Below, one piece after another: positions 1,786-57,080 of a DNA stretch of 64,000 nt (position 1 is its first letter; each line of letters starts with the position of its first letter). The notes beneath the pieces were generated by a model. It saw nothing but the letters and a program-made list of their open reading frames with translations, ran no database searches and was not told the DNA's origin. Both the position numbers and the translations under genes were made by a program. The stretch is from assembly GCF_947500795.1 (NCBI RefSeq), contig NZ_CANMTE010000003.1, positions 62,001-126,000 on the forward strand. Direction: 5' to 3'. Origin of the DNA: an uncultured Gelidibacter sp. GTDB taxonomy: Bacteria; Bacteroidota; Bacteroidia; Flavobacteriales; Flavobacteriaceae.

Positions 1786-1861
1786 ATTGGTTGAGAATTG
1801 ATGATTGATGATTGGTGATTGGTGATTGGTGATTGATGATTGGTGATTGAAGATTGTTGAT
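1786..1861. repeat. Degenerate heptamer array, TGATTGR type
   Basis: About ten consecutive 7-bp units of the form TGATTGA or TGATTGG with occasional substitutions. They fill the space right after the DUF6122 stop and run into a second heptamer array of different sequence. No reading frame or hairpin explains them. Confidence 0.85.
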
Positions 1862-1868
1862 TAGCACC

Positions 1869-1940
1869 CGTCAACTGAATACTGCTTACTGAAAACTGAA
1901 AACTGCCTACTGCAGACAGAATACTGCCTACTGAATCCCC
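1869..1940. repeat. Degenerate heptamer array, ACTGNNN type
   Basis: Nine units in strict 7-bp register: ACTG followed by AAT, CTT, AAA, AAA, CCT, CAG, then one ACAGAAT unit, then ACTGCCT and ACTGAAT. The array ends six bases before the stop codon of the convergent gene at 1943. The same unit family recurs at 7204-7318, 31141-31182 (opposite orientation) and 34585-34633. Confidence 0.9.
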
Positions 1941-1942
1941 CC

Positions 1943-2965
1943 TTACTTCACCTTCACCTTACTCATAATCGGGAAATGATCCGAAAGCTTAACTTCAAAA
2001 GTCTTAAAACTATTGATTTCAAAGTTTTTATCAGCCATTATAAAATCGATTCTCACAGGGAAAAACTTAAAATTAAACGTACGCCCAAAACCGTTACCAG
2101 CTTCCACAAACGCATCGCTTAAATCGTCACCTTTAATTTTATTATACACATAAGAATAGGCCGTATTATTGAAATCGCCACAAACAATCACCTTGTATTT
2201 ACACTTTGCCTTATGTTCTAAAAACAAATCTGCTTGTGACTGTTGATGCCTAAAAGTGTTACCAACACGCTTAAATAAATTTTCAGAAGTTTCGTTTTTC
2301 AATGGATCAGAATTCGCATCAATTTTAAGCGATTGCAGGTGTACATTATAAATTCTGATGGTATCCTTTCCCTTTACCACGTCCACAAAAATAGCGTTGT
2401 TATAAGTGTTAGGAAACTCGATAGATCCTTTATTGATGATAGGAAACTTAGAAAAGATAGCCTGACCGTTCTTAATTTTTTTTCCTGAAAGCACTTCAAA
2501 CTTATAATACTCCTTTAACTGCAAATCGTTATCAAGACGATATTCCTGCATGCTAATAATATCAGGATTCTTATCGGCTATAAATTTACTGATTTCAGTA
2601 GTGACATTTTTACTCGGCAACCATTCAAACAGATTGAATAAGCGCACATTATAGTTCATGACCGCTAAGTTTTGATCATCTTCTACTTGTTTGGAAGATG
2701 ATACTTTATAGAGTGAACTCACGTAATTGAAGCCTATTAAAAGCACAATTAAGGACAATAACAGCTGCTTTTTAATATTTAGAAGCCAATAAATAACAAA
2801 GAGGATATTGACAATAATCAGAAATGGTACTGTCAGACTTAAAACAGAGATAAAAGCGGAGCGTTCCGGCTCAATATAAGGCAATATATATGACAGCAAA
2901 AGTGTAGTTGCTGCAATTGAATTTAAGAAAAACACAAACTTATTAAAGAGGTTGAGTTTTTTCAT
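1943..2965 (-). CDS. Endonuclease/exonuclease/phosphatase family membrane protein
   Basis: A 340-residue protein: three hydrophobic segments (about residues 10-30, 37-60 and 66-85), then an EEP-fold domain. Fold landmarks are NYNVRLFN (104-111), a metal-binding Glu in SMQEY (141), NVH (207-209), GDFNN (263-267), RIDFIM (305-310) and the terminal SDH (328-330). The family covers DNases, phospholipases and phosphoesterases; the membrane anchor puts the domain at the periplasmic face or in the periplasm, but the substrate cannot be inferred. It is the last gene of the operon that starts at 6964, five bases after the second rhomboid. Confidence 0.85.
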   Translation of the reverse strand: MKKLNLFNKFVFFLNSIAATTLLLSYILPYIEPERSAFISVLSLTVPFLIIVNILFVIYWLLNIKKQLLLSLIVLLIGFNYVSSLYKVSSSKQVEDDQNLAVMNYNVRLFNLFEWLPSKNVTTEISKFIADKNPDIISMQEYRLDNDLQLKEYYKFEVLSGKKIKNGQAIFSKFPIINKGSIEFPNTYNNAIFVDVVKGKDTIRIYNVHLQSLKIDANSDPLKNETSENLFKRVGNTFRHQQSQADLFLEHKAKCKYKVIVCGDFNNTAYSYVYNKIKGDDLSDAFVEAGNGFGRTFNFKFFPVRIDFIMADKNFEINSFKTFEVKLSDHFPIMSKVKVK

Positions 2966-2970
2966 CGCAC

Positions 2971-3843
2971 CTAGTCTTTAGCTTTAAATAAAAAAGCTTT
3001 TTCCTCCTCAGTCAGACTTTCATAACCACTTTTGCTAATTTTATCCAGGATAAGATCTATTTGCTTTTGCTTATTAAACTCTTTAAACTCATTTTTATTA
3101 TGACCTGCAACAGAATTAGACTTGCGCTTGTGTACGGTTTTTAAAGGCGATTTATTACTAGATTTAAAAAGATTGGAAACCCAGTCCATTAGCTTTTCAA
3201 AACCTTCACCAATATCATTCCCTTTAATCAGCTGTTTGGCATAGAAATACCCCAACGCTACACCACCTAAATGCGCAATAGTTCCACCTTGGTTGGCTCC
3301 GAAAAGTCCTATAAGATCAAAACCTACAAGTGCAACCCCCAAATGCCATAATTTGATATTAAACATCAATAACTTGACTTGAGTATTTGGCATATAGGCA
3401 CATAAGAAAATCAATAATGCCCTCACACCCACGGATGCTCCAACCAAAGCGCCTGCCGGTTTCAAAAAACTTAAAGGCAATACATTGTAAGCGAAAAGAA
3501 AAAAGAGTCCGCCCAAGATGATACCCAAGAAATAGATTTTTAGCGTGAGTTTAGATTCGAATAAATTAAGCATCATTTGAGATACGTAATACAGCACCAA
3601 CATGTTGAACAATATATGGAACAAGCCATAATGCGTAAATCCGTAGGTAATGATACTCCAAGGTTTAAAGATGAATTCTCCAAGATCTTTTGGCAACTCT
3701 AACCAATATAAGCTACTCCCCGATGTTACAATCAGCGACAGCACTAACCCAATTAAAAAAACCACCACATTGATAGCGATTATTTTTTCGAGCACATTGA
3801 GGTTTCTCAATTTCTCTTGAATATCTTGATTTAATGAGGTCAT
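2971..3843 (-). CDS. Rhomboid family intramembrane serine protease, atypical active site
   Basis: A 290-residue multi-span protein. The rhomboid HxxxN motif is at H76-N80, the nucleophile is in GASVG (Ser137) and the catalytic His is in IAHLGG (H191). Most rhomboids have GxSG; here the residue after Ser is Val. A basic cytoplasmic tail of about 85 residues follows the last span. Its ATG overlaps the stop codon of the other rhomboid by four bases (ATGA), so the two are translationally coupled. Protease activity is likely but less certain than for its neighbour. Confidence 0.88.
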   Translation of the reverse strand: MTSLNQDIQEKLRNLNVLEKIIAINVVVFLIGLVLSLIVTSGSSLYWLELPKDLGEFIFKPWSIITYGFTHYGLFHILFNMLVLYYVSQMMLNLFESKLTLKIYFLGIILGGLFFLFAYNVLPLSFLKPAGALVGASVGVRALLIFLCAYMPNTQVKLLMFNIKLWHLGVALVGFDLIGLFGANQGGTIAHLGGVALGYFYAKQLIKGNDIGEGFEKLMDWVSNLFKSSNKSPLKTVHKRKSNSVAGHNKNEFKEFNKQKQIDLILDKISKSGYESLTEEEKAFLFKAKD

Positions 3844-7203: not shown

Positions 7204-7318
7204 CAGCTCAACCTACTGCCAACTGAAACCTGCCTACTGCCTACCGAAGACTGCTTACTGAATACTGCCTACTGAAGACTGCCAACTGAAGACTGCTTAC
7301 TGCCTACTGGCTACTGAA
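7204..7318. repeat. Degenerate heptamer array, ACTGNNN type
   Basis: About fifteen units in strict 7-bp phase, mostly ACTG plus three variable bases (CCA, AAA, CCT, AAG, CTT, AAT, GCT). A few units have one change inside the core, such as CCTG or ACCG. The array ends at the base before the ribH stop codon. Confidence 0.92.
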
Positions 7319-7804
7319 CTAAGCGTTCTGACGCAAAACCGCCATCTTAATAGCAGCAACCGCAGCTTCAACACCTTTATTACCGTGTTTCCCGCCCGAT
7401 CTATCGATAGATTGTTGCATGGTATTATCAGTCAATACACAAAAGATTACTGGAGTGTCATGCATCACATTCAAGTCCTTAATCCCATTTGCAACCGCTT
7501 CACAAACAAAGTCGAAATGCTTAGTCTCACCTTGAATCACACATCCAATGGCAATCACAGCATCCACCATATGCTCTTGCATTTTTTTGCTACCATAGAT
7601 AAGCTCATAACTACCAGGAACATGCCAGCTAATGATGTTTTCAGACAGCGCACCGTGTTCTACCAACGTATTTAGCGCACCTTCGTAAAGGTTATCTGTG
7701 ATATTACTATTCCATTCTGAAACAACAATCCCAAACCGAAGGTTCTTCGCATTTGGGATTGTGTTTTTATCGTAAGCCGATAAATTTTGATTTTTTGTTG
7801 CCAT
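7319..7804 (-). CDS. ribH: 6,7-dimethyl-8-ribityllumazine synthase
   Basis: Condenses 5-amino-6-ribitylaminouracil with 3,4-dihydroxybutanone 4-phosphate to form lumazine, the penultimate step of riboflavin synthesis; the family forms pentamers or 60-mer capsids. At 161 residues it has family length. Signatures are VVSEWN (27-32), VPGSYE (62-67) and the GCVIQGETKHFDFV segment (87-100) with catalytic His97. It starts four bases after the TPR protein gene, so the two share a transcript. No FMN riboswitch is apparent upstream. Confidence 0.96.
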   Translation of the reverse strand: MATKNQNLSAYDKNTIPNAKNLRFGIVVSEWNSNITDNLYEGALNTLVEHGALSENIISWHVPGSYELIYGSKKMQEHMVDAVIAIGCVIQGETKHFDFVCEAVANGIKDLNVMHDTPVIFCVLTDNTMQQSIDRSGGKHGNKGVEAAVAAIKMAVLRQNA

Positions 7805-14601: not shown

Positions 14602-14623
14602 TGTCTTATTAAAGGAACCACTT

Positions 14624-14742
14624 CTTACTTCTTACTTCTCACTCCTTACTTCTCTCTTTTCTATCCTCTATCCTCTATTCTCTATTCTAACTTCCAACTC
14701 CCCTCTTCCAACTCCCAATTCCCCTCTTCCAACCTCACAACG
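14624..14742. repeat. Degenerate pyrimidine-rich heptamer array
   Basis: About seventeen consecutive 7-bp units. The sequence drifts from CTTACTT through CTCTATC/CTCTATT to CCAACTC/CCCTCTT while the 7-bp phase never slips. It lies between the gldI-operon terminator and a REP-like palindrome, in the convergent gap before the giant adhesin gene. Different in unit from the ACTGNNN arrays but the same in period. Confidence 0.88.
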
Positions 14743-14755
14743 CACCACTCCCATA

Positions 14756-14997: not shown

Positions 14998-17900
14998 TTA
15001 GTCTTTAATAATGACCTTCTTATTTAAACTTCCTGAAGTGGTTTCTATTTTCACAACATAACTTCCATCAGGAACATTTTTAACTGGAATTCTCATTTCA
15101 GTAGACAAGGTCATATTGGTAGCATTCCATGCTTGAACTGTTTGACCAATAATATTGATTAAATACACTTGTTTTACATTTACATCATTTGGCGTTTGAA
15201 TAAAGATCTCATCCGTATTTTGTAAATATTTAACCACTACGTTTTCAAATTCTGAATCAATAACAGATAATGGTTTTTCTTCTTGAAACACTAAGAAGAA
15301 ACGTTTATCATAGTTCCCAGCCTCTAAAGTGATAGCAAAACTGGTATCGTTGATTTGGTGATACGTATCCAATGTAGAATCGTAAACAAATACATCTATA
15401 GCTTCACTGAAGTTTTCTAAATCTGTTAATTTAAATTCTACTTTACCTTCTTTTGCCAATTGCATTGCGAAAGGATACTTTTTAGCAGTATCAAATTGCC
15501 CGACGCCTTGAATCACGTATTTAGAATCATTGATTAACCATAGCAAATCGCTTGGGAAAGCGTCATTATTTAAAGCATCGTAACCATAATCTACGGCATC
15601 AGAAGCTTCATTGTTAGGTGTAAACGCTAACAACAAAGGTCGAGAAGCTCCTTCTGGTGTTTTAAATCTTAAACGAACCCGTTTTATAACGTCATCAATA
15701 TTGGGTGAGTTTGTAGAATTTGAATTTCTAAAAAATAGTGAGCCATCGTTAGCTGCTCCTGTTACTTTTTCCTTTTTAAATTCACGTTGACTATTATGAA
15801 AAACTACTTGTCCACCCATATCACTAGCTTTTACAAAAAAACCTTGTCCAACTGACACGTACCGTTCCGGTTTCCTTATACCATTAAGTTCCTGATCTTG
15901 CGCATAACCATCATCAGTGATTTTCGGTGTAACAGCTACAACTCCACCGCTTAAGGAATAGGTTGCATAACCCCCAACATATTCTCTTAAGATATGAGTG
16001 TTATTCGCTTCGTAATGCTCCCAAAAATATAAGATTCCAGTAATACTTCCCGAGGTATTTGGGTTGGCATTACTAGATTCACCGTCTGGATTAGTGGCTG
16101 GCATATTATCTCTAATGAATTCATTAGCATCTATAGCAGAAGCATATGGATTACCTACTAAAAGGTCATTACCTACGGGAATTTTATTCTTAATTGTACC
16201 ATTATTCGGTTTCCCAACAAAAACATAATTTTGAGTAGTACCACTACCTCTACCACTACCTTTCATAGTATACCCTAATCCTATTTTATTAGCCGTTTTA
16301 TCATTAATCCTCTTCCACCCTGTAAAATAATTAGAAATGGTATCGTAGGTTGTTAACCATCGTGTGCTTAATACAATTGGGGTGCCTGGTGCGCCATCAC
16401 GACCAGTTGTCCAGGTTATAGTGCCTGGATTTGCTGATACAGTTCCATCGTGTAGTACGCTCCCAATTTTAAAACTCTTTGAGTTAGCGCTACCTTCCAC
16501 TACCGGTGATCCCCAGTAGTTGTAGTTAAAGTGGTTGCCGGTACCTTGTTGATCACGTTCTAATTGTCCACTACTATCGTCATCCAAAATACTTCCTTCA
16601 GTCTGCACCATTTGTGACTCTCCTTTTAAATCAATAAGACCATTTAATTTTAGATAATGCGTAATCCATAAACCTTGACCAGTCCCCGTGCCATCAGCTC
16701 CAGTATTTCCTTCCATTGTTAATTCACCAGATTCTGAAATTAAACCTAATAAGGTGATGTCTCGTGCACCCGATGAAATATTATGCGCAGTTCTGACGAT
16801 ATTCCAATCAATTGGGTCACCATTCACACCAGTACTATTTGGGATACCCCAAACATCAGGTTCTAACCAGGTAGATTTAATATCCCAATCACTATTTGCT
16901 GCTGATTTATAAGGTAGTGGGGCCGTGTTTTCCTGTAGCGTTGTCATATTCCTCAACTTGCCATTTACAGTACCAGCCAGGTTAGGCGTATATCCACCAT
17001 TCAAAATATCGTTGGAAAGTAATTTATAATAACCCGCAAGGCTTGTATAAGGGAGTCCTGGTGCAGGCATAGGAATTTCTACACCAATATTTGGACCTGG
17101 TTGTAATCTCTGGTTCATTAAGAATCGAATTTGTTCTTGAGAAATATTTCCATTCCAAATGCGCACTTCTTCTATCCATCCGGAAAAAAAGTTTGTTGCA
17201 TTAGGAGGCGACCATTTTGCACCAATAAAGGATCGACTTGTTCCTGTGGTGCTAATTGTTGTACCGGTATCAATACCATCTAAATATAATTTTCCATTGC
17301 TATCAACAGCTATGTGATACCATCTGTTATTTGGAATAACACCTGGTAGGTCGGACATATTAATTTCCCTATTTTTAGTACTTATTATTGTACCTGTAGA
17401 AGCCTTAGGACGAATCCATGCTTCTATACTATAATCTCCAGTATAGTCACCAAGATCTACAAAATCATCTTTACCATCGAAATCAAGGGCAACACAATTT
17501 TGTACATTTATTGTAATTGCTGTAAAGTTAATTGGACATTTGCTCGCATCTCTACCATCGTTGACGCTGCGGCTCATTGTCCATCTTAGGGTATAAGCTC
17601 CTTCATTAGGTGCATTAAAAATTGCATTTGGATTTTTAATAGGATCCGAAGTATCATTTGGATCTGGATTGGAAAAAGAATATCCTGAATGTTCTGGACC
17701 TACAACTTCCCAGAATGGAGCGTCATAACCGTCTGGTGTTGGGAACGTAAGACTATTCCCCTGCTTCGATCCCTTTAATTCTGCTTTTAATTGGAAATTG
17801 TTTTTTCCGCATGCTGCTACAGGCGGCGCTGTAGCAGTTGACGTATAGTTGTCGAAAACGTAAACATTAACAGTTTCGGAGTTATTAGGATCTGCACTTC

Positions 17901-20900
17901 TACATTCCGTTCCATCATCTGTCACTAAAAAAGAGGTGATTTTAAATGTATTTAACCCAATTTTATCTGGTGTCACGGTTATATTTTGCTGGTTCTTTAC
18001 GGTTATTACCTCCCCCTGAGCATTGGTATAAGTCCAAACTGAGGAAATATTAAGCGGAGGATTTGGGAGAGCAATTTGGTCAATTGCCCAAGAGCTGGCA
18101 GCATTACCAATATATCTAAATCTAATTTTTAAATTAGTCTGACCTACATAATCTTGCAAATCAATCGTAGTCGGGTTTAAACCGTTATGATTCCCAGAAT
18201 CTGCGGCTCCCGATATTTTACTTAAAAGAACGTCATAATTTGCGCCACCGTCCAAAGACAATTCAATAATTGCTTGAGCACCGGCGGTCAAAACATAAGC
18301 TTGATTAAACTTGAGAGTAAGCTCAGATAATCCTAAAGTATTAAATACTGGGGTTTGCATAATAGAATTAAGATTACCCCTAACAATTGCGAATTTTTTG
18401 TCAGGTGAATCATATTCTGTACCATTAAAGGATTTTGGGCCATTTGTTAATGCCCATGGCCCTGGTTTGGTAGCATCGCCATTTGCAGGAAGGCAATTAC
18501 CACAACCGTCCACTAACCACCCGTCAGGATTTCCACTATTAAAAGAGCCACCATCAGCGATTTGAGTATTGGTAGAGTAGTTTAATTGCGAAGTTAATTG
18601 TACCGGTGTTCCAAAACAGACTTCTGAAAAACTAGCTTTAACGGGACTTGGTTTTATATCAGCAGGAATCACACTAATCACCGCAAATTTAGAGTAAGTT
18701 AAGCCGCAGGATCCACTGGAAATAACGGCTCTAAATAAGGTCGTTTTAGTTAAACCCGAATATCCAGAATAAGAGTAAGTATTCTCTGTATTTGGAATAT
18801 CTGTCCAAGAAGTTGCAACGGAAGGATTATCTGTTTTTTGCCATTTTAGAACTGTTCCAGTTGCACCAGTAAGTTCGATAGCTCTCGAAGTGCCTGAAGT
18901 TGCATTATGACACACTAAATATGTTGACTTGTTGAGACCATCAAAAAGCAATTGGCCTCCAACAGGTTTTGGATCTATTTTTATAGTCCCAGTTATAGGT
19001 TCTACACTGCATCCCCCGGTTAGTGTGATGGTATAAGTTGTTGGACCACCTGCTGCAGTTGGAGTTCCACTTATTTTAACTGTATTGTTTACCCAAGTAC
19101 CGGTAACACCAGCTGGTAATCCAGAAAATGTAGCTCCAGTAGCACCAGTGGTGGCATAGGTAATATCGGTAAGCGGTGAATTAATACAAACGGACTGTGC
19201 ATTCGTACCCGAAGCTGAAGTTAGCGTAATTGTATTAGAGGGTTTAACAGTAATTGTCCCCTTTGGCTTCTCTCCACTACATGCCCCAGTAAGAGTTACT
19301 GTATAATTAAATGAACCAACTTCAGTAGGCTTGCCACTGATGGTAACAACATTATCTGACCATGTACCTGTTACTCCTGCTGGTAATCCAGAAAATGAAG
19401 CACCAGTAGCATCAGTGGTGGCATAAGTAATAGCCGTAATCTGAGTATCAGTACAAACGGATTGAGCATTTGTACCCGAAGCTGAAGTTAGCGAAAATGT
19501 ATTAGTTGGATCGACATTAATTGTCCCTGTTATAGGTTCTATACTGCATCCCCCGGTTAGTGTGACGGTATAAGGTGTTGGACCAACTGCTGCAGTCGGG
19601 GTTCCGCTTATTTTAACAGTATTATTTACCCAAGTTCCGGTAACGCCAGCTGGTAATCCTGAAAATGTAGCTCCAGTAGCACCCGTGGTGGCATAGGTGA
19701 TATCAGTTAGCGGAGTATTTTTACAAACGGATTGTGCATCTGTACCCGAAGCTGAAGTTAGCGTAAATGAATTAGTTGGATCGACATTAATTGTCCCTGT
19801 AATAGGTTCTACACTGCATCCCCCGGTTAGTGTGACGGTATAAATTGTTGTACCTGCTGCAGTCGGGGATCCGCTTATTTTAACAGTATTGTTTACCCAA
19901 GTTCCGGTAACGCCAGCTGGTAATCCTGAAAATGTTGCTCCAGTAGCACCAGTGGTGGCATAGGTGATATCAGTTAGCGAAGTATTAATACAAACGGATT
20001 GTGCATCTGTACCCGAAGCTGAAGTTAGCGAAAATGTATTAGTTGGATCGACATTAATTGTCCCTGTAATAGGTTCTACACTGCATCCCCCGGTTAGTGT
20101 GACGGTATAAGTTGTTGGACCACCTGCTGCAGTCGGGGTTCCGCTTATTTTAACAGTATTGTTTACCCAATTTCCGGTAACGCCCGCTGGTAATCCTGAA
20201 AATGTAGCTCCAGTAGCACCAGTGGTGGCATAGGTAATATCAGTTAGCGGAGTATTAATACAAACGGATTGTGCATCTGTACCCGAAGCAGAAGTTAGCG
20301 TAATTGTATTAGATGGATCGACACTAATTGTCCCTGTTATTTCTACGTCACCACACCCCCCGGTAAGAGTGACCGTATAATTAAATGGACCACCAACTTC
20401 AGTAGGTATGCCATTTATTTTAACTGTATTGTTTGCCCAAGTACCGGTAATGCCTGCTGGTAATCCAGAAAACGAAGCTCCAGTAGCACCAGTGGTAGCA
20501 TACGTGATTTCGGTAAGTGATGTATTAAAACATATGTTCTGATTGTCTGTATTTACAGCTGAGGTAAGTGTTATAGTGTTGTTAGGATTTACTTTGAGAT
20601 AAGTAGGCTTTGATATGGTTTGTGGACACGCACCATCCGTAGCACTGACTACCACATCGTAACTTCCGGAATTGCCTTCTGTTGCATTGGTAAAAGTTAA
20701 GGTGTTGGTATTAACACCTGAAACAGCTCCACTATTAGAAATCGAAACCCCACCTTTCCTCCATTGATAACTGAGTCCTGTTCCTGTGGCTGCAACTGAA
20801 AGCGACGTGCTAGTACCTGCACAAATTTCCTTGTCATCCGGCTGAGTTGTAATTTCAATATCTTCATTCACATTAATTTCCGCATTAGCTGAAGTTACTT

Positions 20901-28172: not shown

Positions 28173-31136
28173 ATGATTAAACCATTATTAACCATCATGA
28201 CATTCATGTGCAGTTTTTCAATGCTCGCACAAGATTATTTCCCCAAAAACGACGGGGTTTCTACAAAAAACACGAATTACACCGCTATTACAAACGCCAA
28301 AATTTATGTAACGCCTACTCAAGTTATTGAGAAGGGGACCTTACTTATTAAAGACGGCAAGGTGGTTGCTTCGGGAACGTCAGTGAACATCCCTAAAAAC
28401 GCAACAAAAATTGATGCGACGGGCAAAAGCATTTACCCTTCTTTTATTGATATGTATTCTGATTTTGGTATTGAAAAACCAAAACGTCAAGGTGGCGGGA
28501 GAAGTGCACAATACGATCCATCACGCACTGGGTTTTACTGGAATGACCATGTGATGCCAGAAAACAATGCTATTGATGAATTTAAGTATGATTCTAAAAA
28601 GGCAGAAGACCTAATTAAAGCAGGATTTGGTGTTGTGAATACGCATATTCAAGACGGAATTGTGCGTGGCACGGGAACGCTAGTCGCTCTTAATTCTGAC
28701 GCTGATAATTCAATGCGTATTATTGATGCTAAATCGGCACAATACTTATCGTTCAGTAAAAGTGTAAAATCCAATCAGTCCTACCCTTCTTCAGTAATGG
28801 GAAGTATGGCGTTATTGAGACAGTTATATAATGATGCCGATTGGTATGCAAAAGGCCATTCTAAAACTAAAGATTTGTCTATTGAAGCGTTGAATAACAA
28901 CAAATCTATGGTTCAGATTTTTGAAGCAGGAAGCAGAGCCAATAACTTACGTGCTGATAAAGTTGGCGATCTTTTCAACATCCAATACATTATTTTAGGT
29001 GGTGGTGACGAGTATGAGCGTATTGATGAGATTAAAGCGATGAATGCGCCAATGATTATCCCTATCAATTTCCCAGATGCTTATGATGTTGAAAATGCAT
29101 TTTTGGCCTCTACGCTTTCCATTCAGGATATGAGAGCTTGGAATCAGAAACCGACCAACCCAAAACTATTGGCTGAGAAAAACATTCCGTTTGCCTTGAC
29201 GATGCACGACCTAAAATCGTCTAAAGAATTTAAAGCGAATTTACTGAAAGCCATTGAAGCAGGATTATCTAAAGAAAAAGCATTGGAAGCGTTGACAACT
29301 ATTCCGGCGCAACTTTTAGGGAAATCTGATCAAATCGGATCTTTAAAGAATGGCGCTTATGCGAATTTCCTGATTACTTCTGGTGATATTTTTGACAAGA
29401 AAACGACGTTATATGAAAACTGGGTTCAAGGTTACAAAAACACCATTGAAGACAGAAATACCATCGATATTACGGGTACGTATACCTTCACTTTAGCTGG
29501 CGATACTTATGAAATGATCCTTTCTGGGGAATTGAACAAGTTGAAATCAGAAATTACTGCCAACGACAAAAAACGTGGTTCGAAAGTTTCTTATGCTAAT
29601 GACTGGGTGAATATTGCGTTCACCACTCAAGACAGCACAAAACAGGAATTTGTAAGAGTTGTGGCGACAGTTGATGCCAATAAAAATCTTAATGGAAAAG
29701 CGATTCTTCCGACAGGAAATGAACTGAGCTTCTTCGCAAAACAAACGGAATCTAAGAAAGATACGCCATCTAAAAAAGAAGATGACGACGATAAAAAAGA
29801 GGCTACTGCTTCTGTATCGCCAATCACATTCCCAAATAATGGCTACGGATTTGAAACATTACCAAAAGCAGAAACATTATTGTTTAAGAATGCTACAGTT
29901 TGGACCAACGAAAATGACGGTATTTTAGAGAATACGGATGTGTTGATCAAAAATGGTAAAATTGCCAAAATTGGCAAAAACTTATCTGAAAGTGGCGCCA
30001 AAGTTATTGATGCAACTGGCAAACATTTAACCTCTGGAATTATTGATGAGCATTCACATATTGCTGCAGCTTCTATTAACGAGGGCGGACAAAACTCATC
30101 AGCAGAGGTGACTATTGAAGATGTCATTGATGAGACGGATGTCAATCTTTACAGAAACTTAGCTGGTGGTGTAACTTCCATTCAAATATTACATGGTTCT
30201 GCAAACCCGATTGGTGGACGTTCGGCTATTATCAAACCAAAATGGGGACATGCTGCCAAAGATTTGATCTTTACTAACAGTCCGAAATTTATAAAGTTCG
30301 CTTTAGGTGAAAACGTTAAACAATCTAATTGGGACGGTACGCGTTTCCCTCAAACAAGAATGGGTGTTGAGCAGGTTTATGTAGATTATTTTACAAGAGC
30401 GAAAGCTTACGAAGCGCTTAAGAAAAGTGGAAAACCATACCGTAAGGATGCTGAAATGGAAACTTTGGTCGAAATATTGAACGGTGAACGTTTTATCTCA
30501 TGTCACTCATATGTACAAAGTGAAATCAATATGTTCATGAAAGTTGCTGAACAATTCAACTTTAAGATCAACACGTTTACCCATATTTTAGAAGGCTATA
30601 AATTGGCGGATAAAATGGTGGAGCACGGTGTTGGTGGATCTACATTCAGCGATTGGTGGTCTTATAAATATGAAGTTAATGATGCTATTCCTTACAACGC
30701 TGCCATTATGCATGATGCAGGCGTCACTGTTGCGCTTAATAGTGATGATGCTGAAATGAGCCGTCGTTTGAATCAGGAAGCGGCTAAAACCGTTAAATAC
30801 GGTGGTGTTAGCGAGGAAGAGGCTTGGAAATTTGTTACGTTAAACCCGGCAAAATTATTACATATTGATGATCGTGTAGGTAGTATTAAAGTTGGTAAAG
30901 ATGCCGATGTTGTATTATGGACAGACCATCCACTTTCAGTATATGCTAGAGCTGAAAAAACAGTGATTGAAGGTGTTACTTATTTCGATTTGAAACGTGA
31001 TGAACAAATCAGAACACAAATCAAAAAAGAAAGAAGTCAACTGATCAACGATATGTTGCAGGCCAAGAATAAAGGTTTAAAAACACAACCGATTAAGAAG
31101 AAAGAAAAAGAGTTATTGCACTGCGATTCGGAATAG
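28173..31136 (+). CDS. Exported tandem amidohydrolase-family protein (one half lacks metal ligands)
   Basis: A 987-residue protein with a signal peptide (about 1-19, ending SMLAQ). Two amidohydrolase-type modules follow. The first (about 35-440) has the composite-barrel start but reads YPSFIDMYSD where active members have DxHxH. After a Lys/Asp/Glu-rich linker (about 528-548), the second (about 565-960) keeps DEHSH, SCHSY, FTHILEGY and NSDDAEM, so a metal site looks intact. It is probably periplasmic; the substrate (dipeptide, imidazolone or other cyclic amide) cannot be told. A related single-domain gene follows after a heptamer array. Confidence 0.87.
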   Translation: MIKPLLTIMTFMCSFSMLAQDYFPKNDGVSTKNTNYTAITNAKIYVTPTQVIEKGTLLIKDGKVVASGTSVNIPKNATKIDATGKSIYPSFIDMYSDFGIEKPKRQGGGRSAQYDPSRTGFYWNDHVMPENNAIDEFKYDSKKAEDLIKAGFGVVNTHIQDGIVRGTGTLVALNSDADNSMRIIDAKSAQYLSFSKSVKSNQSYPSSVMGSMALLRQLYNDADWYAKGHSKTKDLSIEALNNNKSMVQIFEAGSRANNLRADKVGDLFNIQYIILGGGDEYERIDEIKAMNAPMIIPINFPDAYDVENAFLASTLSIQDMRAWNQKPTNPKLLAEKNIPFALTMHDLKSSKEFKANLLKAIEAGLSKEKALEALTTIPAQLLGKSDQIGSLKNGAYANFLITSGDIFDKKTTLYENWVQGYKNTIEDRNTIDITGTYTFTLAGDTYEMILSGELNKLKSEITANDKKRGSKVSYANDWVNIAFTTQDSTKQEFVRVVATVDANKNLNGKAILPTGNELSFFAKQTESKKDTPSKKEDDDDKKEATASVSPITFPNNGYGFETLPKAETLLFKNATVWTNENDGILENTDVLIKNGKIAKIGKNLSESGAKVIDATGKHLTSGIIDEHSHIAAASINEGGQNSSAEVTIEDVIDETDVNLYRNLAGGVTSIQILHGSANPIGGRSAIIKPKWGHAAKDLIFTNSPKFIKFALGENVKQSNWDGTRFPQTRMGVEQVYVDYFTRAKAYEALKKSGKPYRKDAEMETLVEILNGERFISCHSYVQSEINMFMKVAEQFNFKINTFTHILEGYKLADKMVEHGVGGSTFSDWWSYKYEVNDAIPYNAAIMHDAGVTVALNSDDAEMSRRLNQEAAKTVKYGGVSEEEAWKFVTLNPAKLLHIDDRVGSIKVGKDADVVLWTDHPLSVYARAEKTVIEGVTYFDLKRDEQIRTQIKKERSQLINDMLQAKNKGLKTQPIKKKEKELLHCDSE

Positions 31137-31140
31137 TTTT

Positions 31141-31182
31141 CAGTTGGCAGTCTTCAGTCTTCAGACGGCAGTTGACAGTCAG
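31141..31182. repeat. Short heptamer array, CAGTNNN type (reverse of ACTGNNN)
   Basis: Six units in 7-bp phase (CAGTTGG, CAGTCTT, CAGTCTT, CAGACGG, CAGTTGA, CAGTCAG) beginning four bases after the amidohydrolase stop codon. It is the same family as 1869-1940 in opposite orientation. Confidence 0.88.
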
Positions 31183-31268: not shown

Positions 31269-32567
31269 ATGAAAAAAAACATATATATAGTTCTCCTCGC
31301 ACTGTGCACCAGCTTTGGATTTGCACAACAAACACCCGCTTCCAAGCAATCTAAACCGATTGCCATTACGGGTGCTACCGCGCATTTAGGCAATGGCGAT
31401 GTGATTGAAAACAGCCTTATCATTTTTAAGGATGGAAAATTAACTACGGTTTCTAGTGCATCACAAACGGATCTTTCGGCAATGGAGGTTATCAAAGCTG
31501 ATGGAAAACATGTGTATCCTGGATTTATCGTGCCTTCTTCTACTCTAGGATTAGTAGAAATTGATGCTGTAAAAGCAACTTCTGATGATCGTGAGATGGG
31601 TGAAATGAACCCGCACATTAGAAGTATTATTGCTTATAACACGGAGTCTAAAGTGGTCGAATCTATGCGTCCAAACGGAGTATTGATGGGACAAATTGTA
31701 CCTCAAGGCGGCCGTATTTCTGGAACTTCCTCAGTAGTACAATTTGATGCTTGGAACTGGGAAGATGCTACCGTAAAAGTTAATGACGGCATTTACATGA
31801 ATTGGCCAAGTAGTTTTACACGTGGTAGATGGTGGCTTGGCGAAGACCGCGGATTAAAAAGCAATGAGAAATACAACGAACAAGTTGATGAAGTAGTATC
31901 ATTTTTTAACGAAACAAAAGCCTATGCTGCAGGAGATCAACCAGTAATTAATTTACCATACGCTGCTACTCAAGGGTTGTTTGATGGTACCAAAAAATTA
32001 TACATTAGAGTAGATGACGAAAAAGGAATCACAGATGCCATTCATTTTGCAAAAAACAATAACGTGCAACACATGGTAATTGTTGGAGGAAGTGAAGCTT
32101 ATAAAGTAGCCGATTTGCTAAAACAAAACAACATTCCTGTTATTTTACAACGTGTGCATTCCTTACCAAGTAGAGATGATGACGATTATGATATGGCCTA
32201 CAAACTTGCTAATTTATTAGTCGAAAAAGGCGTTTTAGTCGCATTAAATGCTAACGGACAAATGGAGCGTATGCATTCTAGAAATTTACCGTTTTATGCA
32301 GGTACCACAGTCGCTCACGGCTTAGACAAAGAAGAAGCTTTAAAACTGATCACTTCTAATACAGCTAAAATTTTAGGAATCGATAAAGATTACGGCACTT
32401 TGGAAGCTGGTAAAAGCGCAACCCTTTTTATTAGTGAAGGTGACGCTTTAGACATGCGTACCAACAGACTAACACATGCTTTTATTGATGGTCGTTTAGT
32501 GAGTTTAGAAACCCACCAAACAGAACTGTACCAACGCTACGATAACAAATTTAAAGCTGGAAAATAG
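31269..32567 (+). CDS. Exported amidohydrolase-family protein, degenerate metal site
   Basis: A 432-residue protein with a signal peptide (about 1-18, ending GFAQQ). It has the amidohydrolase composite-barrel start (AITGATAHLGNGDVIENSLI) and end (LGTLEAGKSATLFI type). Where the HxH motif should follow YPGF it reads IVPSSTLGLVEID, as in the first module of the gene before it. It may be a structural partner of the 987-residue protein or a pseudoenzyme. Same strand, 132 bp downstream, separated by a heptamer array. Confidence 0.85.
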   Translation: MKKNIYIVLLALCTSFGFAQQTPASKQSKPIAITGATAHLGNGDVIENSLIIFKDGKLTTVSSASQTDLSAMEVIKADGKHVYPGFIVPSSTLGLVEIDAVKATSDDREMGEMNPHIRSIIAYNTESKVVESMRPNGVLMGQIVPQGGRISGTSSVVQFDAWNWEDATVKVNDGIYMNWPSSFTRGRWWLGEDRGLKSNEKYNEQVDEVVSFFNETKAYAAGDQPVINLPYAATQGLFDGTKKLYIRVDDEKGITDAIHFAKNNNVQHMVIVGGSEAYKVADLLKQNNIPVILQRVHSLPSRDDDDYDMAYKLANLLVEKGVLVALNANGQMERMHSRNLPFYAGTTVAHGLDKEEALKLITSNTAKILGIDKDYGTLEAGKSATLFISEGDALDMRTNRLTHAFIDGRLVSLETHQTELYQRYDNKFKAGK

Positions 32568-32573
32568 TTTTAA

Positions 32574-32601
32574 GAAGTTGGAAGCATGAAGCCGGAAGTT
32601 T
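32574..32601. repeat. Short heptamer array, GAAGNNN type
   Basis: Four units in 7-bp phase (GAAGTTG, GAAGCAT, GAAGCCG, GAAGTTT), starting seven bases after the stop codon of the second amidohydrolase gene. Confidence 0.75.
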
Positions 32602-32629
32602 CATGTTTAAAACTCCAAAATCTATTACA

Positions 32630-32679
32630 AAAAAAATCTGTCAAGCCCAAAAGTCGGGAATGACAGATTTTTTTTATTT
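32630..32679 (+). terminator. Rho-independent terminator of the amidohydrolase genes
   Basis: Stem AAAAAATCTGTCA / TGACAGATTTTTT with an inner CCC/GGG pairing; T-runs on both strands. Confidence 0.9.
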
Positions 32680-32743
32680 CAATACGTATTTAGTGTTCTA
32701 CAAATTGATGAAACCATGAGGCCGCAAGCATTTACGAATCAAA

Positions 32744-32817
32744 TCTTAATTCTTAATACTAACAGCGCAGCAGTCTTAATACTTAATACTAAAAGCGCAG
32801 CGATCTCAATTCTCACC
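32744..32817. repeat. Two and a half tandem 30-bp repeats
   Basis: A unit beginning TCTTAAT and ending AGCGCAGC(A/G)(G/A) starts at 32744, 32774 and, truncated, 32804. It lies between the terminator and the stop of the convergent DUF6503 gene. The TCTTAAT word also forms the heptamer array at 57048. Confidence 0.75.
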
Positions 32818-33621
32818 TTACTGCACCAACTCCGCCCCTTCCGGTCTGCTATACACTCTAATGTCCATTTTAACTGGAGTCAACATCGGACTTATAAATT
32901 TCACTTCATTCTTTACCGTTGTTGGTTTGTTGTTTTCATAGTTATACCATACCATTGTTTCAGGCAATAGCAAACCTTCAACTTCTTGCCAGTTGCTATA
33001 TTTAATAAAATGATATTCTGTTGCTTTTTCGTTTTTGCCAAAGGTCACCGTGTAAGCTAACCAAGCCATTTTATTGGTATCAGCATCATAATACAGGATA
33101 TATTCATCGTCAGGCGATTCACCAACGCCACTTTCAAAAGAAATTTGGATTCCAGGATACGTTTTACCTTCAAAGACTAAAGGGTCAGCGTCAGCATACA
33201 TAATGCCATCATCAGCTAACACAAAAGGCATCGCATAAAAATAGAACATCAAATTATAGTAAAACTTCGGATTGCCTTCATATTTAGCATTAGCTGTGTT
33301 TTTTAACCAAAGTACTTCGCCATCATATCCAATGGTGTGTTTTGGCATTTCTATAAGCGAATAACGGTCTTTTAAATCGGTCGTAGTAATTTCATAACCA
33401 CCAGGTTTTTCCATAGAAAACTCCAAGGTGGCCATCTCATTCCAAGTATCAAGTCCGCCATGTGCATCAAAAATTTTGGTCATATTCTCAGGATAGACAC
33501 TTGTAGTCACATCCAATTCTTCTTCCGTATACGGTTCAGTTTCCGGTTTTGTTTCAGTGGTTTTATCTTTACAAGACACCATAACAGCAAGCATCAGTGA
33601 TAAATAAAGGATTCTTTTCAT
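32818..33621 (-). CDS. DUF6503-type lipoprotein
   Basis: A 267-residue lipoprotein (lipobox VMVSC, Cys17) with an acidic Thr/Glu-rich linker, then a domain starting AHGGLDTWNEMATLEF. The mature domain is rich in beta strands and resembles outer-membrane-lipoprotein-like folds (LolA-like half barrels), which I infer only from pattern. I assign DUF6503 from memory of this AHGG(L)xxW start. Single gene, no promoter box recognised. Function unknown. Confidence 0.7.
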   Translation of the reverse strand: MKRILYLSLMLAVMVSCKDKTTETKPETEPYTEEELDVTTSVYPENMTKIFDAHGGLDTWNEMATLEFSMEKPGGYEITTTDLKDRYSLIEMPKHTIGYDGEVLWLKNTANAKYEGNPKFYYNLMFYFYAMPFVLADDGIMYADADPLVFEGKTYPGIQISFESGVGESPDDEYILYYDADTNKMAWLAYTVTFGKNEKATEYHFIKYSNWQEVEGLLLPETMVWYNYENNKPTTVKNEVKFISPMLTPVKMDIRVYSRPEGAELVQ

Positions 33622-33784: not shown

Positions 33785-34582
33785 GTGAATAAAGAAATAA
33801 CAAGCGTTCAAAACCCGTATATCAAAGAATTGGTTCAGCTCAAGGAAAAATCTAGGGATCGTAAAAAATCAGGGTTATTTTTAATTGAAGGCGCACGCGA
33901 AATTAGTTTGGCCATAAAGGGAAACTATCAAATTGACACTGTGTTGTATTACCCTGAAGTGTTTTCTGATGCACAATTAAAAAGCTTAGACATACAACCA
34001 AAATCGGTGATAGAAATTTCTAAAGAAGTCTATCAAAAATTAGCGCACAGAGATACGACTGAAGGGATTATTGCGGTGGCTAAGACAAAATCGCACGATT
34101 TAAAGGATATCGTATTCAAATCTGAACACCCATTAGTACTTGTTGCGGAAGCTCCTGAAAAACCAGGAAATATCGGTGCGATTCTTAGAACGGCTGATGC
34201 TGCCAATGTAGATGCGGTTATTATTGCCAATCCAAAAACCGATTTATACAATCCGAATATCATCCGCAGTAGTGTAGGCTGTGTGTTTACCAATCAGATT
34301 GCTACAGGAACAACAGCTGATATTATTTCATTCCTAAAAGAACAACATATCGCCATCTATTGTGCGGCGTTACAAGCTTCAGAAATTTATACCACTCAAG
34401 ATTTCAACACTGCCAGCGCTATTGTTATGGGCACGGAAGCTACAGGCTTAAGCGATGCTTGGTTACAACAATCTACCCAAAACATCATCATCCCAATGCA
34501 AGGAGAAATTGACAGTATGAATGTTTCCGTAGCTGCCGGAATCCTTATTTTTGAGGCTAAACGACAACGCGATTTTAAGTAA
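33785..34582 (+). CDS. SpoU/TrmH-family RNA 2'-O-methyltransferase
   Basis: A 265-residue SPOUT methyltransferase using S-adenosylmethionine to methylate ribose in rRNA or tRNA. An N-terminal substrate-binding domain (KSGLFLIEGAREI) precedes the knotted domain with the conserved motifs APEKPGNIGAILRTADAA, IRSSVGCVF, MGTEATGLSDAWL and IPMQGEIDSMNVSVAAGI. The GTG start at 33785 is the only one that gives the family N-terminus. The target nucleotide is unknown. A heptamer array starts three bases after the stop. Confidence 0.93.
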   Translation: MNKEITSVQNPYIKELVQLKEKSRDRKKSGLFLIEGAREISLAIKGNYQIDTVLYYPEVFSDAQLKSLDIQPKSVIEISKEVYQKLAHRDTTEGIIAVAKTKSHDLKDIVFKSEHPLVLVAEAPEKPGNIGAILRTADAANVDAVIIANPKTDLYNPNIIRSSVGCVFTNQIATGTTADIISFLKEQHIAIYCAALQASEIYTTQDFNTASAIVMGTEATGLSDAWLQQSTQNIIIPMQGEIDSMNVSVAAGILIFEAKRQRDFK

Positions 34583-34584: not shown

Positions 34585-34633
34585 ACTGCCTACTGAATAC
34601 TGAGAACTGCATACTGAACACTGCATACTAAAA
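34585..34633. repeat. Heptamer array, ACTGNNN type
   Basis: Seven units in 7-bp phase (ACTG plus CCT, AAT, AGA, CAT, AAC, CAT, then ACTAAAA). It fills the 54-bp gap between the SpoU stop and the ATG of the protease gene at 34637, so it also overlaps where a ribosome-binding site would be. Confidence 0.9.
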
Positions 34634-34636: not shown

Positions 34637-35869
34637 ATGACTGCTACTACCCTTTTCTATATCATAATTGCCATAATCATCATCGATTTTATAGTCGATA
34701 AAATATTGGATGCGTTAAATGCCAAACATTATAATGACCCAATTCCAGCGGAACTGAAAGATGTGTACGACCAAGAGGCGTATGAAAAATCACAGCGATA
34801 CAAAGCCACAAATTATAAATTCGGATTAATTACCTCAACATTTTCATTGGTATTGACCTTGTCATTTTTACTGTTTGATGGATTTGAATTTGTAGATACT
34901 ATTGCGAGAAGTTATAGTGACAACAATATTGTTATTGCATTGATTTTCTTCGGAATTATTATGTTGGGAAGCGATATTCTTACGACTCCTTTTTCCTACT
35001 ATCAAACTTTTGTGATCGAAGAAAAGTTCGGATTCAACAAAACCACGAAAAAAACATTTATCCTTGACAAACTAAAAGGGTTACTGATGATGGGCATTAT
35101 TGGCGGCGGACTCTTAGCTTTGATTATTTGGTTTTACCACGTGACAGGCACTCACTTTTGGCTCTATGCGTGGGCACTTGTAGCACTGTTTAGCATTTTT
35201 GCCAATCTCTTTTATGCACGACTTATTGTTCCGTTATTTAACAAACAAACCCCTTTGGAAGCGGGAGAATTAAGGGAAAAGATTTCAGCGTATGCTAACT
35301 CTGTTGGCTTTAATTTAGATAAAATTTTCATCATTGATGGCTCCAAACGCAGCACAAAAGCCAATGCTTATTTTTCCGGATTTGGAAGCGAAAAACGCGT
35401 GACGCTTTATGACACTTTGGTAAACGATTTAGAAGATGAGGAAATTGTAGCCGTGTTGGCACATGAAGTCGGTCATTATAAAAAGAAGCACATCATTTTT
35501 AATCTGATTGCCTCCCTACTATTGACAGGTTTGACCTTGTTTATTTTATCGATCTTTATTTCAAATCCGCTATTATCAAATGCGCTTGGAGTGACTATTC
35601 CGAGTTTTCATGTGGGATTGATTGCTTTTGGATTACTCTACTCGCCTATTTCGGAAGTTACAGGATTTGTAATGAATCATTTCTCACGCAAGTTTGAATA
35701 CCAAGCAGACGATTATGCTAAAAACACCTATAAAAGCGAACCTTTAGTAAGCTCCTTAAAAAAGCTATCAAAAAACAGTTTGAGCAACCTAACGCCACAT
35801 CCGGCGTATGTTTGGGTGCATTATTCTCATCCTACGCTATTGGAACGTGTCAGGAATTTAAGGAAATAG
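34637..35869 (+). CDS. M48-family CAAX-protease-like metallopeptidase (Ste24 type)
   Basis: A 410-residue multi-span zinc metalloprotease. HEVGH (276-280) binds zinc, the third ligand is in EYQADDYA (about 354), and about seven hydrophobic segments surround the site as in yeast Ste24. Bacteria lack prenylated CAAX substrates, so the role is probably membrane-protein quality control, as proposed for related HtpX. The start is fixed by the first hydrophobic helix. The leader consists of the heptamer array, with no normal ribosome-binding sequence. Confidence 0.93.
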   Translation: MTATTLFYIIIAIIIIDFIVDKILDALNAKHYNDPIPAELKDVYDQEAYEKSQRYKATNYKFGLITSTFSLVLTLSFLLFDGFEFVDTIARSYSDNNIVIALIFFGIIMLGSDILTTPFSYYQTFVIEEKFGFNKTTKKTFILDKLKGLLMMGIIGGGLLALIIWFYHVTGTHFWLYAWALVALFSIFANLFYARLIVPLFNKQTPLEAGELREKISAYANSVGFNLDKIFIIDGSKRSTKANAYFSGFGSEKRVTLYDTLVNDLEDEEIVAVLAHEVGHYKKKHIIFNLIASLLLTGLTLFILSIFISNPLLSNALGVTIPSFHVGLIAFGLLYSPISEVTGFVMNHFSRKFEYQADDYAKNTYKSEPLVSSLKKLSKNSLSNLTPHPAYVWVHYSHPTLLERVRNLRK

Positions 35870-55838: not shown

Positions 55839-55888
55839 AATGGATACAATTTTAGTATCCATAATCACGAAACCAAAGTTCTATAAAA

Positions 55889-55924
55889 AATCAAATCCTA
55901 TCTGTGAAAACAGATAGGATTTTG
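55889..55924 (+). terminator. Rho-independent terminator after the GT10 gene
   Basis: Stem AATCCTATCTG / CAGATAGGATT around a six-base loop, followed by TTTT, about 50 bases past the stop. Confidence 0.85.
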
Positions 55925-56074
55925 ACCCCTAACTAAACTAAATTTTTAATCTTAATTAATACCGCTTAAAATATAATTAAGACTACCTACTTATGATTAT
56001 GAAACTAAGTAAAGTTCCATTATATCATATATACGTGTTTAAACTCTTATTGGATTACCGGTTTACAAAAAAAA

Positions 56075-56851
56075 CTAAACTTTTTTTGCTTCCTCCCAAA
56101 ACACATCCATTTCCTCCAAAGTCATTTCAGATAAAGGCACGTTGATTTCCCGTGACTTAGCCTCTAAATATTGGAATCTTTTGATGAATTTCTTATTGGT
56201 TCTTTCTAAGGCATTTTCGGGATTAATTTTTAAAAACCGCGCATAGTTGATGATTGAAAAAAGCACATCCCCCAGCTCACTTTCCATTTTATCAGCATCG
56301 CCTTTGGCAACTTCCACTTTTAACTCCGCAAGCTCCTCCTCCACTTTTTCATAAACTTGTTCTGGATGTTCCCAATCAAAGCCAACACCCGCTACTTTGT
56401 CTTGTATGCGATTGGCTTTAACCATGGCTGGTAAACTTTTTGGCACTCCTTGTAACACACTCGTTTTCCCTTTCTCCTTCAGCTTAATTTGCTCCCAATT
56501 ACGTTTGACATCTTCTTCATTTTCCACTTTTACATCGCCGTAAATATGCGGATGTCTTTCAACCAATTTATCGCAAATACTGTTACAAACATCTGCAATA
56601 TCAAAACTATTGGTTTCATTACCAATCCTCGAATAAAACACGATATGCAACAACACATCACCCAATTCCTTTTTAACCTCATCCAAATCCTTATCCAAAA
56701 TAGCATCACCCAACTCGTATACCTCCTCAATAGTTAAATGTCGAAGGGATTCCATGGTTTGCTTTTTGTCCCACGGACATTGCTCACGCAATTCATCCAT
56801 AGTAGTTAAAAGTCGGTCAAAAGCTTGTAATTGTTCTTGTCTGCGTGTCAT
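56075..56851 (-). CDS. mazG: Nucleoside triphosphate pyrophosphohydrolase MazG
   Basis: Hydrolyses (d)NTPs to monophosphate and pyrophosphate, cleaning the pool and modulating stress responses. At 258 residues it has two MazG domains. The first (about 20-125) holds the metal-binding set CPWDKKQTMESLRHLTIEEVYEL / KKELGDVLLHIVFYS. The second (about 150-225) has EEELAELKVEVAKGD and ESELGDVLFSIINYAR. Single gene with its own promoter box. Confidence 0.96.
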   Translation of the reverse strand: MTRRQEQLQAFDRLLTTMDELREQCPWDKKQTMESLRHLTIEEVYELGDAILDKDLDEVKKELGDVLLHIVFYSRIGNETNSFDIADVCNSICDKLVERHPHIYGDVKVENEEDVKRNWEQIKLKEKGKTSVLQGVPKSLPAMVKANRIQDKVAGVGFDWEHPEQVYEKVEEELAELKVEVAKGDADKMESELGDVLFSIINYARFLKINPENALERTNKKFIKRFQYLEAKSREINVPLSEMTLEEMDVFWEEAKKV

Positions 56852-56871
56852 GTTGTTGTTTTTCTGAAATT

Positions 56872-56879
56872 CAAAATTA
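56872..56879 (-). promoter_or_regulatory. Promoter -7 box (TAATTTTG) of mazG
   Basis: TAnnTTTG match on the minus strand, about 20 bases ahead of the ATG. Confidence 0.6.
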
Positions 56880-56994
56880 CGAAAATCGATACTGCTTGTG
56901 TACTAAATTTTATAAGAATCAAACCCTTCGATAAACAGTGTGCTTCATTGCTTCCCTTGAAAATCATTATTTATTAACAATTGGAAATAAAATG

Positions 56995-57034
56995 AAACCC
57001 CCACATTCTGTAAAAGAAATTGTGGGGGTTTTTA
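56995..57034 (-). terminator. Terminator of the DUF5606 gene
   Basis: Stem AAACCCCCACA / TGTGGGGGTTT with T-runs on both sides, about 50 bases past the stop at 57081. Confidence 0.88.
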
Positions 57035-57047
57035 TTTTTGAATCAAG

Positions 57048-57080
57048 TCTTAATTCTTAATTCTGATATCTTAATTTTAA
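57048..57080. repeat. Heptamer array, TCTTAAT type
   Basis: Units at 57048, 57055, 57062, 57069 and 57076 (TCTTAAT, TCTTAAT, TCTGATA, TCTTAAT, TTTAATT) in strict 7-bp phase. The array ends at the base before the DUF5606 stop codon at 57081. Confidence 0.8.

Follow-up and report, generated by a model that had tools for sequence, protein, structure and literature searches.

Heptad arrays in Gelidibacter spacers: a tetramer core, a variable triplet and a strand that follows the nearest gene end

A stretch of 64,000 nucleotides from a marine, uncultured Gelidibacter sp. (contig NZ_CANMTE010000003.1, positions 62,001 to 126,000; the window) contains intergenic arrays of consecutive seven-base units. 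An initial annotation, made from the letters of the window, named eight such stretches and described them as keeping an exact 7-bp period but not a sequence. The question raised by these arrays is what is conserved in them and what decides where, and on which strand, they are found. We observed that the period is real, that the main family keeps an ACTG core next to a variable triplet, that several arrays are fixed in place and strand across Gelidibacter while their units and copy number differ, and that the direction of an array relative to the nearest gene end is not random.

The seven-base period and the tetramer core

All eight named stretches are built of heptamers. Their lag-7 identity is 0.60-0.80, whereas 1000 dinucleotide shuffles of each stretch average 0.24-0.39 (p 0.001-0.002), and Tandem Repeats Finder (TRF) reports arrays at seven of the eight places. 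The period was also observed in a larger sample of the same genome, made up of the window and 20 spaced 20-kb stretches (464 kb), in which the intergenic set consists of 266 pieces of at least 30 nt (43.9 kb). Intergenic identity in this sample is 0.310 at lag 7 compared with 0.299 at lag 6 and 0.298 at lag 8, with more local peaks at lags 14, 21, 28 and 35, and the coding DNA has no lag-7 peak (identity 0.260). A total of 19 intergenic period-7 segments were found at a score of at least 14, where 10 dinucleotide shuffles gave a mean of 0.2 and a maximum of 1. Among the multiples of seven, period 14 gave 14 segments and period 21 gave 13. A small excess was also noticed at period 8 (4 segments vs 0.2) and period 16 (4 vs 0.1), and the remaining periods from 3 to 22 gave 0-2 segments each. 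An intergenic excess of lag-7 autocorrelation is thus present, with no match in the shuffles. The arrays had been taken to be noncoding and this agrees with the sample, where 20 of the 22 period-7 segments of this score lie wholly or mostly outside the called open reading frames (ORFs) although 90% of the DNA is called coding.

The largest family has the unit ACTGNNN, or CAGTNNN on the other strand. A search of the 3.46-Mb genome for three consecutive units gives 98+123 matches, where the reversed-letter control gives none. Twelve distinct period-7 arrays of the 464 kb belong to this family, and ACTG was not among the tetramers listed there at any other period from 4 to 12. Of 97 arrays tested, some of them from loci fetched by the ACTG pattern, 52 have four neighbouring columns that are largely spared by the lag-7 mismatches, and the core is ACTG or CAGT in 39 of these 52; no significant four-column core (p<0.05) was reached in the other 45. 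The main family therefore does keep a sequence, contrary to the first description. The phase, which had been said not to slip, was also observed to do so, as ATTG occurs at 1786 and 1797, 11 bp apart. The remaining arrays have units of GATTG, AGG, GAAG, CTTAAT or CTTC-like type. Two further features were noticed in the arrays. In L047 (5814-6009) and L158 the core switches within one register from TAATNCT to ACTGNNN and then back, and a GC-rich palindrome of the CCCGCCCGTACC...CGTTCGGGCGGG type lies inside or adjoins the heptad arrays in the L153, L154, L168 and L185 spacers.

Strand of the arrays at gene ends

In the ACTG family CAGT is found after stop codons and ACTG before start codons, which means that CAGT reads outward from the gene. 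Array strand was scored against the closest gene end in three Gelidibacter genomes, namely the window's genome (G000), G. salicanalis (G013) and G. sediminis (G244), the last being the nearest listed relative of the window's genome (88% identity in the SpoU methylase). This rule is kept by 88 of 104 arrays (p 3e-13), including 66 of the 70 that lie within 30 nt of a gene end. When orthologues are merged, it is kept by 35 of the 39 groups with a majority, 6 of the 45 groups having none. Genomes of three other genera (G157, G248 and G279) gave 61 of 66 arrays, and 52 of 52 within 30 nt. Within the same distance the rule holds at starts (38/39), at stops (63/67) and in convergent spacers (17/18, compared with 5/10 beyond 30 nt).

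These counts depend on a simple gene caller, by which any ORF reading through an array was cut back to begin at the next start codon beyond it, and array-spanning ORFs shorter than 900 nt (600 at a locus edge) were discarded. The search pattern (pattern B), which misses arrays with A at -7, gave 95 hits in the three Gelidibacter genomes, of which 5 were left out (1 in G000, 3 in G013 and 1 in G244). The polarity count took 104 of 109 arrays and left out two ties, one array inside an ORF and two without a flanking ORF. In the other genera, 8 of the 34 hits of G248 were left out, 5 of the 27 hits of G279 were covered and G211 (65 hits) was excluded; loci L001-L034 and L195-L215 lie outside the polarity counts.

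The position of the arrays follows the same division. In co-directional spacers with at least 40 nt of room, 32 of the 41 sense-CAGT arrays are at most 20 nt from the stop, where uniform placement would give 7.5, and none comes that close to the start. Of the 38 sense-ACTG arrays, 18 have the start at this distance or less and 0 have the stop there (7.1 expected). Five of the 84 arrays were omitted for too little room (<40 nt): two CAGT arrays, 12 and 11 nt from the stop, and three further ACTG arrays in tight spacers, which are within 20 nt of both start and stop (2, 16 and 16 nt from the stop, including the array at 34585 of the window). The proposed tie to stop codons is therefore borne out for the sense-CAGT arrays, but transcript ends are not the only sites, as the arrays are tied to both gene ends on opposite strands. 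Spacers between divergent genes are rarer among array spacers (4/75) than among background spacers (38/228, p 0.012).

Stop codons that have a sense-CAGT array at most 35 nt downstream are TAG in 27 of 48 cases, compared with 66 of 331 in the background (p 4e-7), and TAG makes up 17.0 of the 28 stops before such arrays when counted per orthologue group. In 17 of the 48 cases the stop is in register with the array, and 14 of these 17 stops are TAG. Therefore, the stop codon often seems to be an altered CAG of the array.

Arrays with other cores were also observed to have a preferred direction. Their G-richer strand (G>C) points outward in 43 of 57 arrays and their G+T-richer strand in 36 of 47 (orthologues unmerged), with 7/8 within 30 nt and 3/4 beyond in convergent spacers.

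Several other causes of the polarity were considered and rejected. Stop codons in all frames (7 being 1 mod 3) would suit sense-ACTG arrays, with 180 sense and 14 antisense stops, but not sense-CAGT arrays (57 vs 87), and are not a general reason. Shielding of downstream operon genes from Rho predicts that the rule relaxes in convergent spacers, yet within 30 nt it holds there. Replication-strand bias does not agree with single spacers that hold both strands, and R-loop-driven expansion predicts one strand both before starts and after stops, which is not observed. An artefact of ORF calling would place stops beside ACTG arrays, through the TGA present in ACTG-sense arrays, and the opposite is seen.

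Facing arms and the arrays of the window

Both strands are present in 15 of the 75 array spacers of the three Gelidibacter genomes. All 15 are ordered CAGT then ACTG and lie between co-directional genes, and the other 60 are one-armed (three strict units). Across the family, 32 of 299 genomes (from 28 genera) have CAGT then ACTG, and 1 of 299 has the reverse order besides the usual one. Arms of GTCA/TGAC were searched for in 29 genomes, 22 chosen because the reversed pattern matched and 7 because ACTG did, and CAGT then ACTG was seen among these in G351 and G522. For the GTCA/TGAC arms, G542 has GTCATTK then AAATGAC, whereas in G579 the tetramers are the other way round (TGACRGA then TCYGTCA). 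In both genomes the leading arm is the one richer in G or G+T, gene context being outside this comparison. These two genomes suggest from their sequences that composition, and not one tetramer, sets the polarity.

An RNA hairpin can form where two facing arms share a spacer. Folding took 45 of the 59 co-directional spacers (length 40-260), and the two-arm spacers have a median z of -4.1 (14 of the 15) compared with -0.95 for 117 array-free spacers. Seven two-arm sequences were folded singly. Six of them form short helices with small internal loops about every seven bases, and the L144 spacer does not. In one hairpin all 27 of 27 pairs are kept in two species; three of the four substitutions appear as G-U pairs and the fourth lies in the loop, though two sequences cannot show covariation.

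The facing arms might thus be intercistronic RNA hairpins that act as a terminator, stabiliser or processing site, with one-arm arrays as their decayed forms. The single arm order in co-directional spacers, the low z and the hairpin retained in one orthologue pair all suit such a role. The majority of array spacers are however one-armed, those folded are unstructured as a group, and several one-arm states are common to multiple species. Intrinsic terminators consist of a hairpin followed by a U-tract, whereas no T-tract was seen by eye after the hairpin in the 15 two-arm spacers, which run into A-rich DNA before the start codon. A hairpin alone is also indifferent to the order of its arms and does not explain an order found in 32 genomes against 1. 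We consider this explanation of the arrays improbable.

The arrays of the window are collected in Table 1.

Table 1. Heptad arrays of the window and their neighbouring genes
Feature	Position	Strand	Context
GATTGNN array	1779..1862	+	begins on the DUF6122 stop (gene at 1463..1783 +), with a single 11-bp step close to its edge
ACTGNNN array	1874..1933	+	CAGT after stop when read from the convergent gene 1943..2965 (-)
ACTGNNN array, 15 heptads, some altered	7212..7316	+	sense CAGT 2 nt after the lumazine synthase stop (7319..7804 -)
ACTTCTY/CTATYCT/TTCCAAC array, in register	14620..14748		mid-spacer, 116 and 249 nt from ORFs
CAGTNNN array	31135..31179	+	in register with the TAG stop (31134-31136) of the gene 28173..31136
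GAAGNNN array	32574..32601	+	after the stop of 31269..32567
(T)CTTAATA repeats	32743..32793		convergent spacer, before the stop of 32818..33621 (-)
ACTGNNN array	34585..34629	+	fills the 54-bp spacer from SpoU methylase (33785..34582) to M48 peptidase (34637..35869)
TCTTAAT array	57045..57071		9 nt beyond the stop of 57081..57626 (-)

The eight arrays first listed are all real, but the list lacked the CTTAAT repeats at 32743-32793, which belong to the same set. The array at 14624 had been singled out as the exception to stop-codon adjacency, and its distances to the called ORFs confirm this. Between the GAAG and CTTAAT arrays, at 32628-32676, a hairpin with a T-tract (ATCTGTCA...TGACAGATTTTTTTT) was observed and is kept in the four Gelidibacter compared; the terminator-like hairpin of that locus is therefore separate from the arrays. 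The window also contains a 3387-aa ORF at 14998-25161 (-) with three blocks of 243-270-bp tandem repeats, a putative large repeat protein.

Several of these arrays were found at the same place in related species. The place, strand and core of the arrays at 31135 and 34585 are shared with G. sediminis, G. algens, G. maritimus and G. salicanalis, and in these four species the ACTG units adjoin the M48 start where the 34585 spacer is longer. The GAAG units at 32574 are present at the same site in G. sediminis, G. algens and G. maritimus. Triplets and lengths vary between species at all three arrays; array length, which the annotation proposed to compare, does differ. The CTTAAT repeats at 32743-32793 occur in G. 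sediminis and G. maritimus but are missing in G. algens. The G. sediminis spacer orthologous to that of the 1874..1933 array also holds CAGT and CAATC arrays. In Aquaticitalea arrays were absent from the spacers examined, including the 31135 and 34585 places, and two Aestuariibaculum species have a short spacer of few bases instead of the 34585 array.

The 75 array spacers of the three genomes fall into 45 orthologue groups; 22 are singletons and the other 23 comprise two or three spacers each. For example, the spacers of one group are 71, 64 and 57 nt long and those of another 93 and 93 nt. A different repeat, of the GTCATT[AG]CGAG type and in several cases with a facing copy, immediately follows the SpoU stop in G. 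maritimus and in other genera (L058 10793-10941; L062, L065, L070 and L075). The spacer after this stop behaves as though it attracted repeats.

Possible origins and known heptad repeats

The explanation that we rank first, tentatively and with rather less than even confidence, is a 7-nt slippage in place, anchored on the core, whose products are filtered by selection on RNA. Arrays would arise in place by slippage of 7 nt, and since the core would serve as the anchor, units in which it is altered would not propagate. As seven is not a codon multiple, arrays would survive only outside coding frames. The polarity would come from selection at the RNA level: after a stop the G/T-richer strand would be tolerated in the transcript, and before a start the A/C-richer, G-poor strand, flavobacterial leaders being G-poor anyway. 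Where arrays lie on both sides, the intercistronic mRNA may fold into a zipper of short helices with small internal loops, which perhaps stabilises or processes the transcript.

A number of observations weigh against this explanation. Beyond 30 nt from a gene end the rule weakens to 22 of 34 arrays in the three Gelidibacter genomes, and G351, which belongs to another family, has both orders of ACTG arms, once each. The composition rule is broken by 14 of the 57 arrays with other cores. On the outward strand of 125 ACTG arrays at most 30 nt from a gene end, G exceeds C in 82 arrays, falls short of it in 26 (G<C) and equals it in 17. For this family the core therefore gives a better statement of the rule than composition does. 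Leaders are G-poor (G 0.083, C 0.167 in the final 20 nt upstream of 206 starts), yet no G preference was found after 186 stops (C 0.169, G 0.132). Ordinary composition thus does not explain the stop side of the rule, and strand composition alone was rejected as the cause of the polarity. The one-arm spacers (31 of the 44 co-directional ones) have a median z of -0.24, no better than the -0.95 of array-free spacers (p 0.14); since one-arm arrays are unstructured as a group, a hairpin is not their general function. The pair count of the two-sequence hairpin does not stand out against its own shuffle control (500 of 500). Furthermore, the array spacer is present in a single species in 22 of the 45 orthologue groups, and orthologous spacers differ in length by a multiple of 7 in 7 of 30 comparisons, where chance would give 4.3. 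Whole-heptad slippage is therefore read from single groups and not from this count, which lowered our confidence in slippage with RNA-level selection.

The polarity could instead be mutational, an explanation that we rank second and regard as unlikely. The 3' end would be extended at DNA ends beside genes, either in a telomere-like manner or by slippage at a broken end, with the extended strand reading outward and two joined ends giving facing arms. End extension would account for the facing order, for the independent triplets of the two arms and for one-arm arrays, and it fits the similar strength of the rule within 30 nt at starts, at stops and in convergent spacers. In addition, Ku is encoded in all three Gelidibacter genomes (G000:C9:49141-49671, with matches in G013 and G244), among 6 of the 50 family genomes searched. 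On the other hand, Ku had no match in the array-rich genomes G211, G248 and G279, by which Ku as a requirement was rejected, and it was found in 5 of 25 array-rich genomes (three being one genus) compared with 1 of 25 array-free genomes (p 0.19). No repeat-adding enzyme was found to go with it, and end extension alone does not explain why arrays hug gene ends.

Another possibility, which we hold to have a rather small chance, is a binding platform, where a protein that binds single-stranded RNA or DNA would read the core of each heptad close to starts and stops; a cold-shock protein or S1 has been suggested in this role for TAACTGA repeats. The constant core, the free triplet and the strict spacing would suit such a protein, and CspB is cited as binding with one protein per heptamer (in PMC4679880). 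The cores were observed to vary between arrays and between genomes, however, and the core strand before starts is opposite to that after stops. RRM_1, one candidate type, had no match in any of the 50 genomes searched, including the window's genome, and RRM proteins were rejected as array readers; cold-shock proteins and S1 lie outside that search.

The family is widely distributed. Of 299 Flavobacteriaceae genomes, 114 have ACTGNNN in four units, and so do 116 of 296 taken from the phylum, though some genomes are rich in reversed-pattern matches instead and the ACTG tetramer is therefore not universal. The arrays resemble repetitive extragenic palindromes and bacterial interspersed mosaic elements (REP/BIME) in being extragenic, partly palindromic and present in many copies, and such elements could be spread by a REP-associated tyrosine transposase (RAYT). 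Its domain Y1_Tnp has matches in 116 of 299 family genomes, with one weak match in G013, but none in the window's genome or G244, and the arrays differ in core and unit and are not copies of one element. This origin seems very improbable.

The repeats called short tandemly repeated repetitive (STRR) sequences in cyanobacteria have a period of seven. Long simple sequence repeats (LSSRs) with 7-nt units, and an unexplained preference for seven, were reported by Mrazek et al. 2007 (as cited in PMC4679880 and PMC4692102), and slippage tied to the polymerase footprint has been proposed for 7-nt repeats (as cited in the same two papers). Our arrays share with the STRR/LSSR class an excess of 7-nt units and a mostly intergenic position. 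Unlike that class, their units are not near-identical, given the lag-7 identities of the eight named arrays. No core with a variable part and no polarity rule came to our notice for the Mrazek repeats or STRR.

TAACTGA direct repeats occur in Beggiatoaceae, cyanobacteria and five Bacteroidetes (MacGregor 2015, PMC4679880). Of 14 sets in Flexibacter litoralis, 12 are forward upstream of starts; a single reverse set lies just after a stop (PMC4679880). TAACTGA is ACTG+ATA rotated, and its orientation at starts matches that of our arrays, in which ACTG-forward units likewise lie upstream of starts. It is described as a fixed heptamer, with related heptamers rarely repeated in the orange Maribeggiatoa genome, whereas in Gelidibacter the triplet varies freely and arrays are as frequent at stops as at starts. 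Exact tandem TAACTGA (TAACTGATAACTGA) had 0 matches in the window, and one two-unit run was found in the G. sediminis orthologue of the 34585 array. According to the same paper, Gramella forsetii and A. sublithincola have longer arrays built of other heptamers, which relatives with shorter spacers lack (PMC4679880). The initial annotation, which knew of no such class in Flavobacteriaceae, was thus partly mistaken, as regards heptamer arrays themselves; for polarised non-quadruplex heptads in this family no account was found among the matches listed in the open-licence literature.

The GGGAATC and GGGGA(T/C)T heptads of Xanthomonas and Nostoc form quadruplexes in vitro, and their functional role was left open by the authors (Rehm et al. 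2015, PMC4692102). According to the cited parts of that paper they are, like our arrays, mostly intergenic and rarer between divergent genes, with the sense strand near or overlapping stops and the antisense strand upstream of ORFs, which compares with the counts of 88/104 and 61/66 given here. The Xanthomonas heptads also form inverted pairs, and their gene context is mostly common to two Xanthomonas while the length varies (PMC4692102). In contrast to these G-rich heptads, the Gelidibacter arrays have a tetramer core with a variable triplet and, with 7-nt flanks included, a G3 quadruplex motif in 0 of 109 arrays and a G2 motif in 4 of 109. The polarity rule therefore stands without quadruplexes. 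A quadruplex function, as stressed for GGGAATC, draws on the polarity shared with the Xanthomonas and Nostoc heptads and, given the motif counts, is hardly credible here. By these features the arrays are heptad repeats of a wider class that includes those of cyanobacteria, Beggiatoaceae and Xanthomonas, and they belong to neither named family (GGGAATC or TAACTGA).

Seven-base repeats are known from scattered bacteria, with no settled cause in the cited parts of two accounts (PMC4692102, PMC4679880). A general law is conceivable but doubtful, in which the heptad arrays of Bacteroidota, Cyanobacteria and Gammaproteobacteria, though unrelated in sequence, would all have the G-richer strand outward from the nearest gene end, through a common 7-nt strand-extending process or an RNA-level filter, with quadruplexes being incidental. 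The G<C cases among the ACTG arrays and the single reverse order in G351 lowered our estimate of it. As non-quadruplex arrays share the placement rule, quadruplex formation is not the general reason for it. The opposite strands at starts and stops, the one order of facing arms, the core with its free triplet and the in-register stops give any proposed mechanism a countable property to explain.

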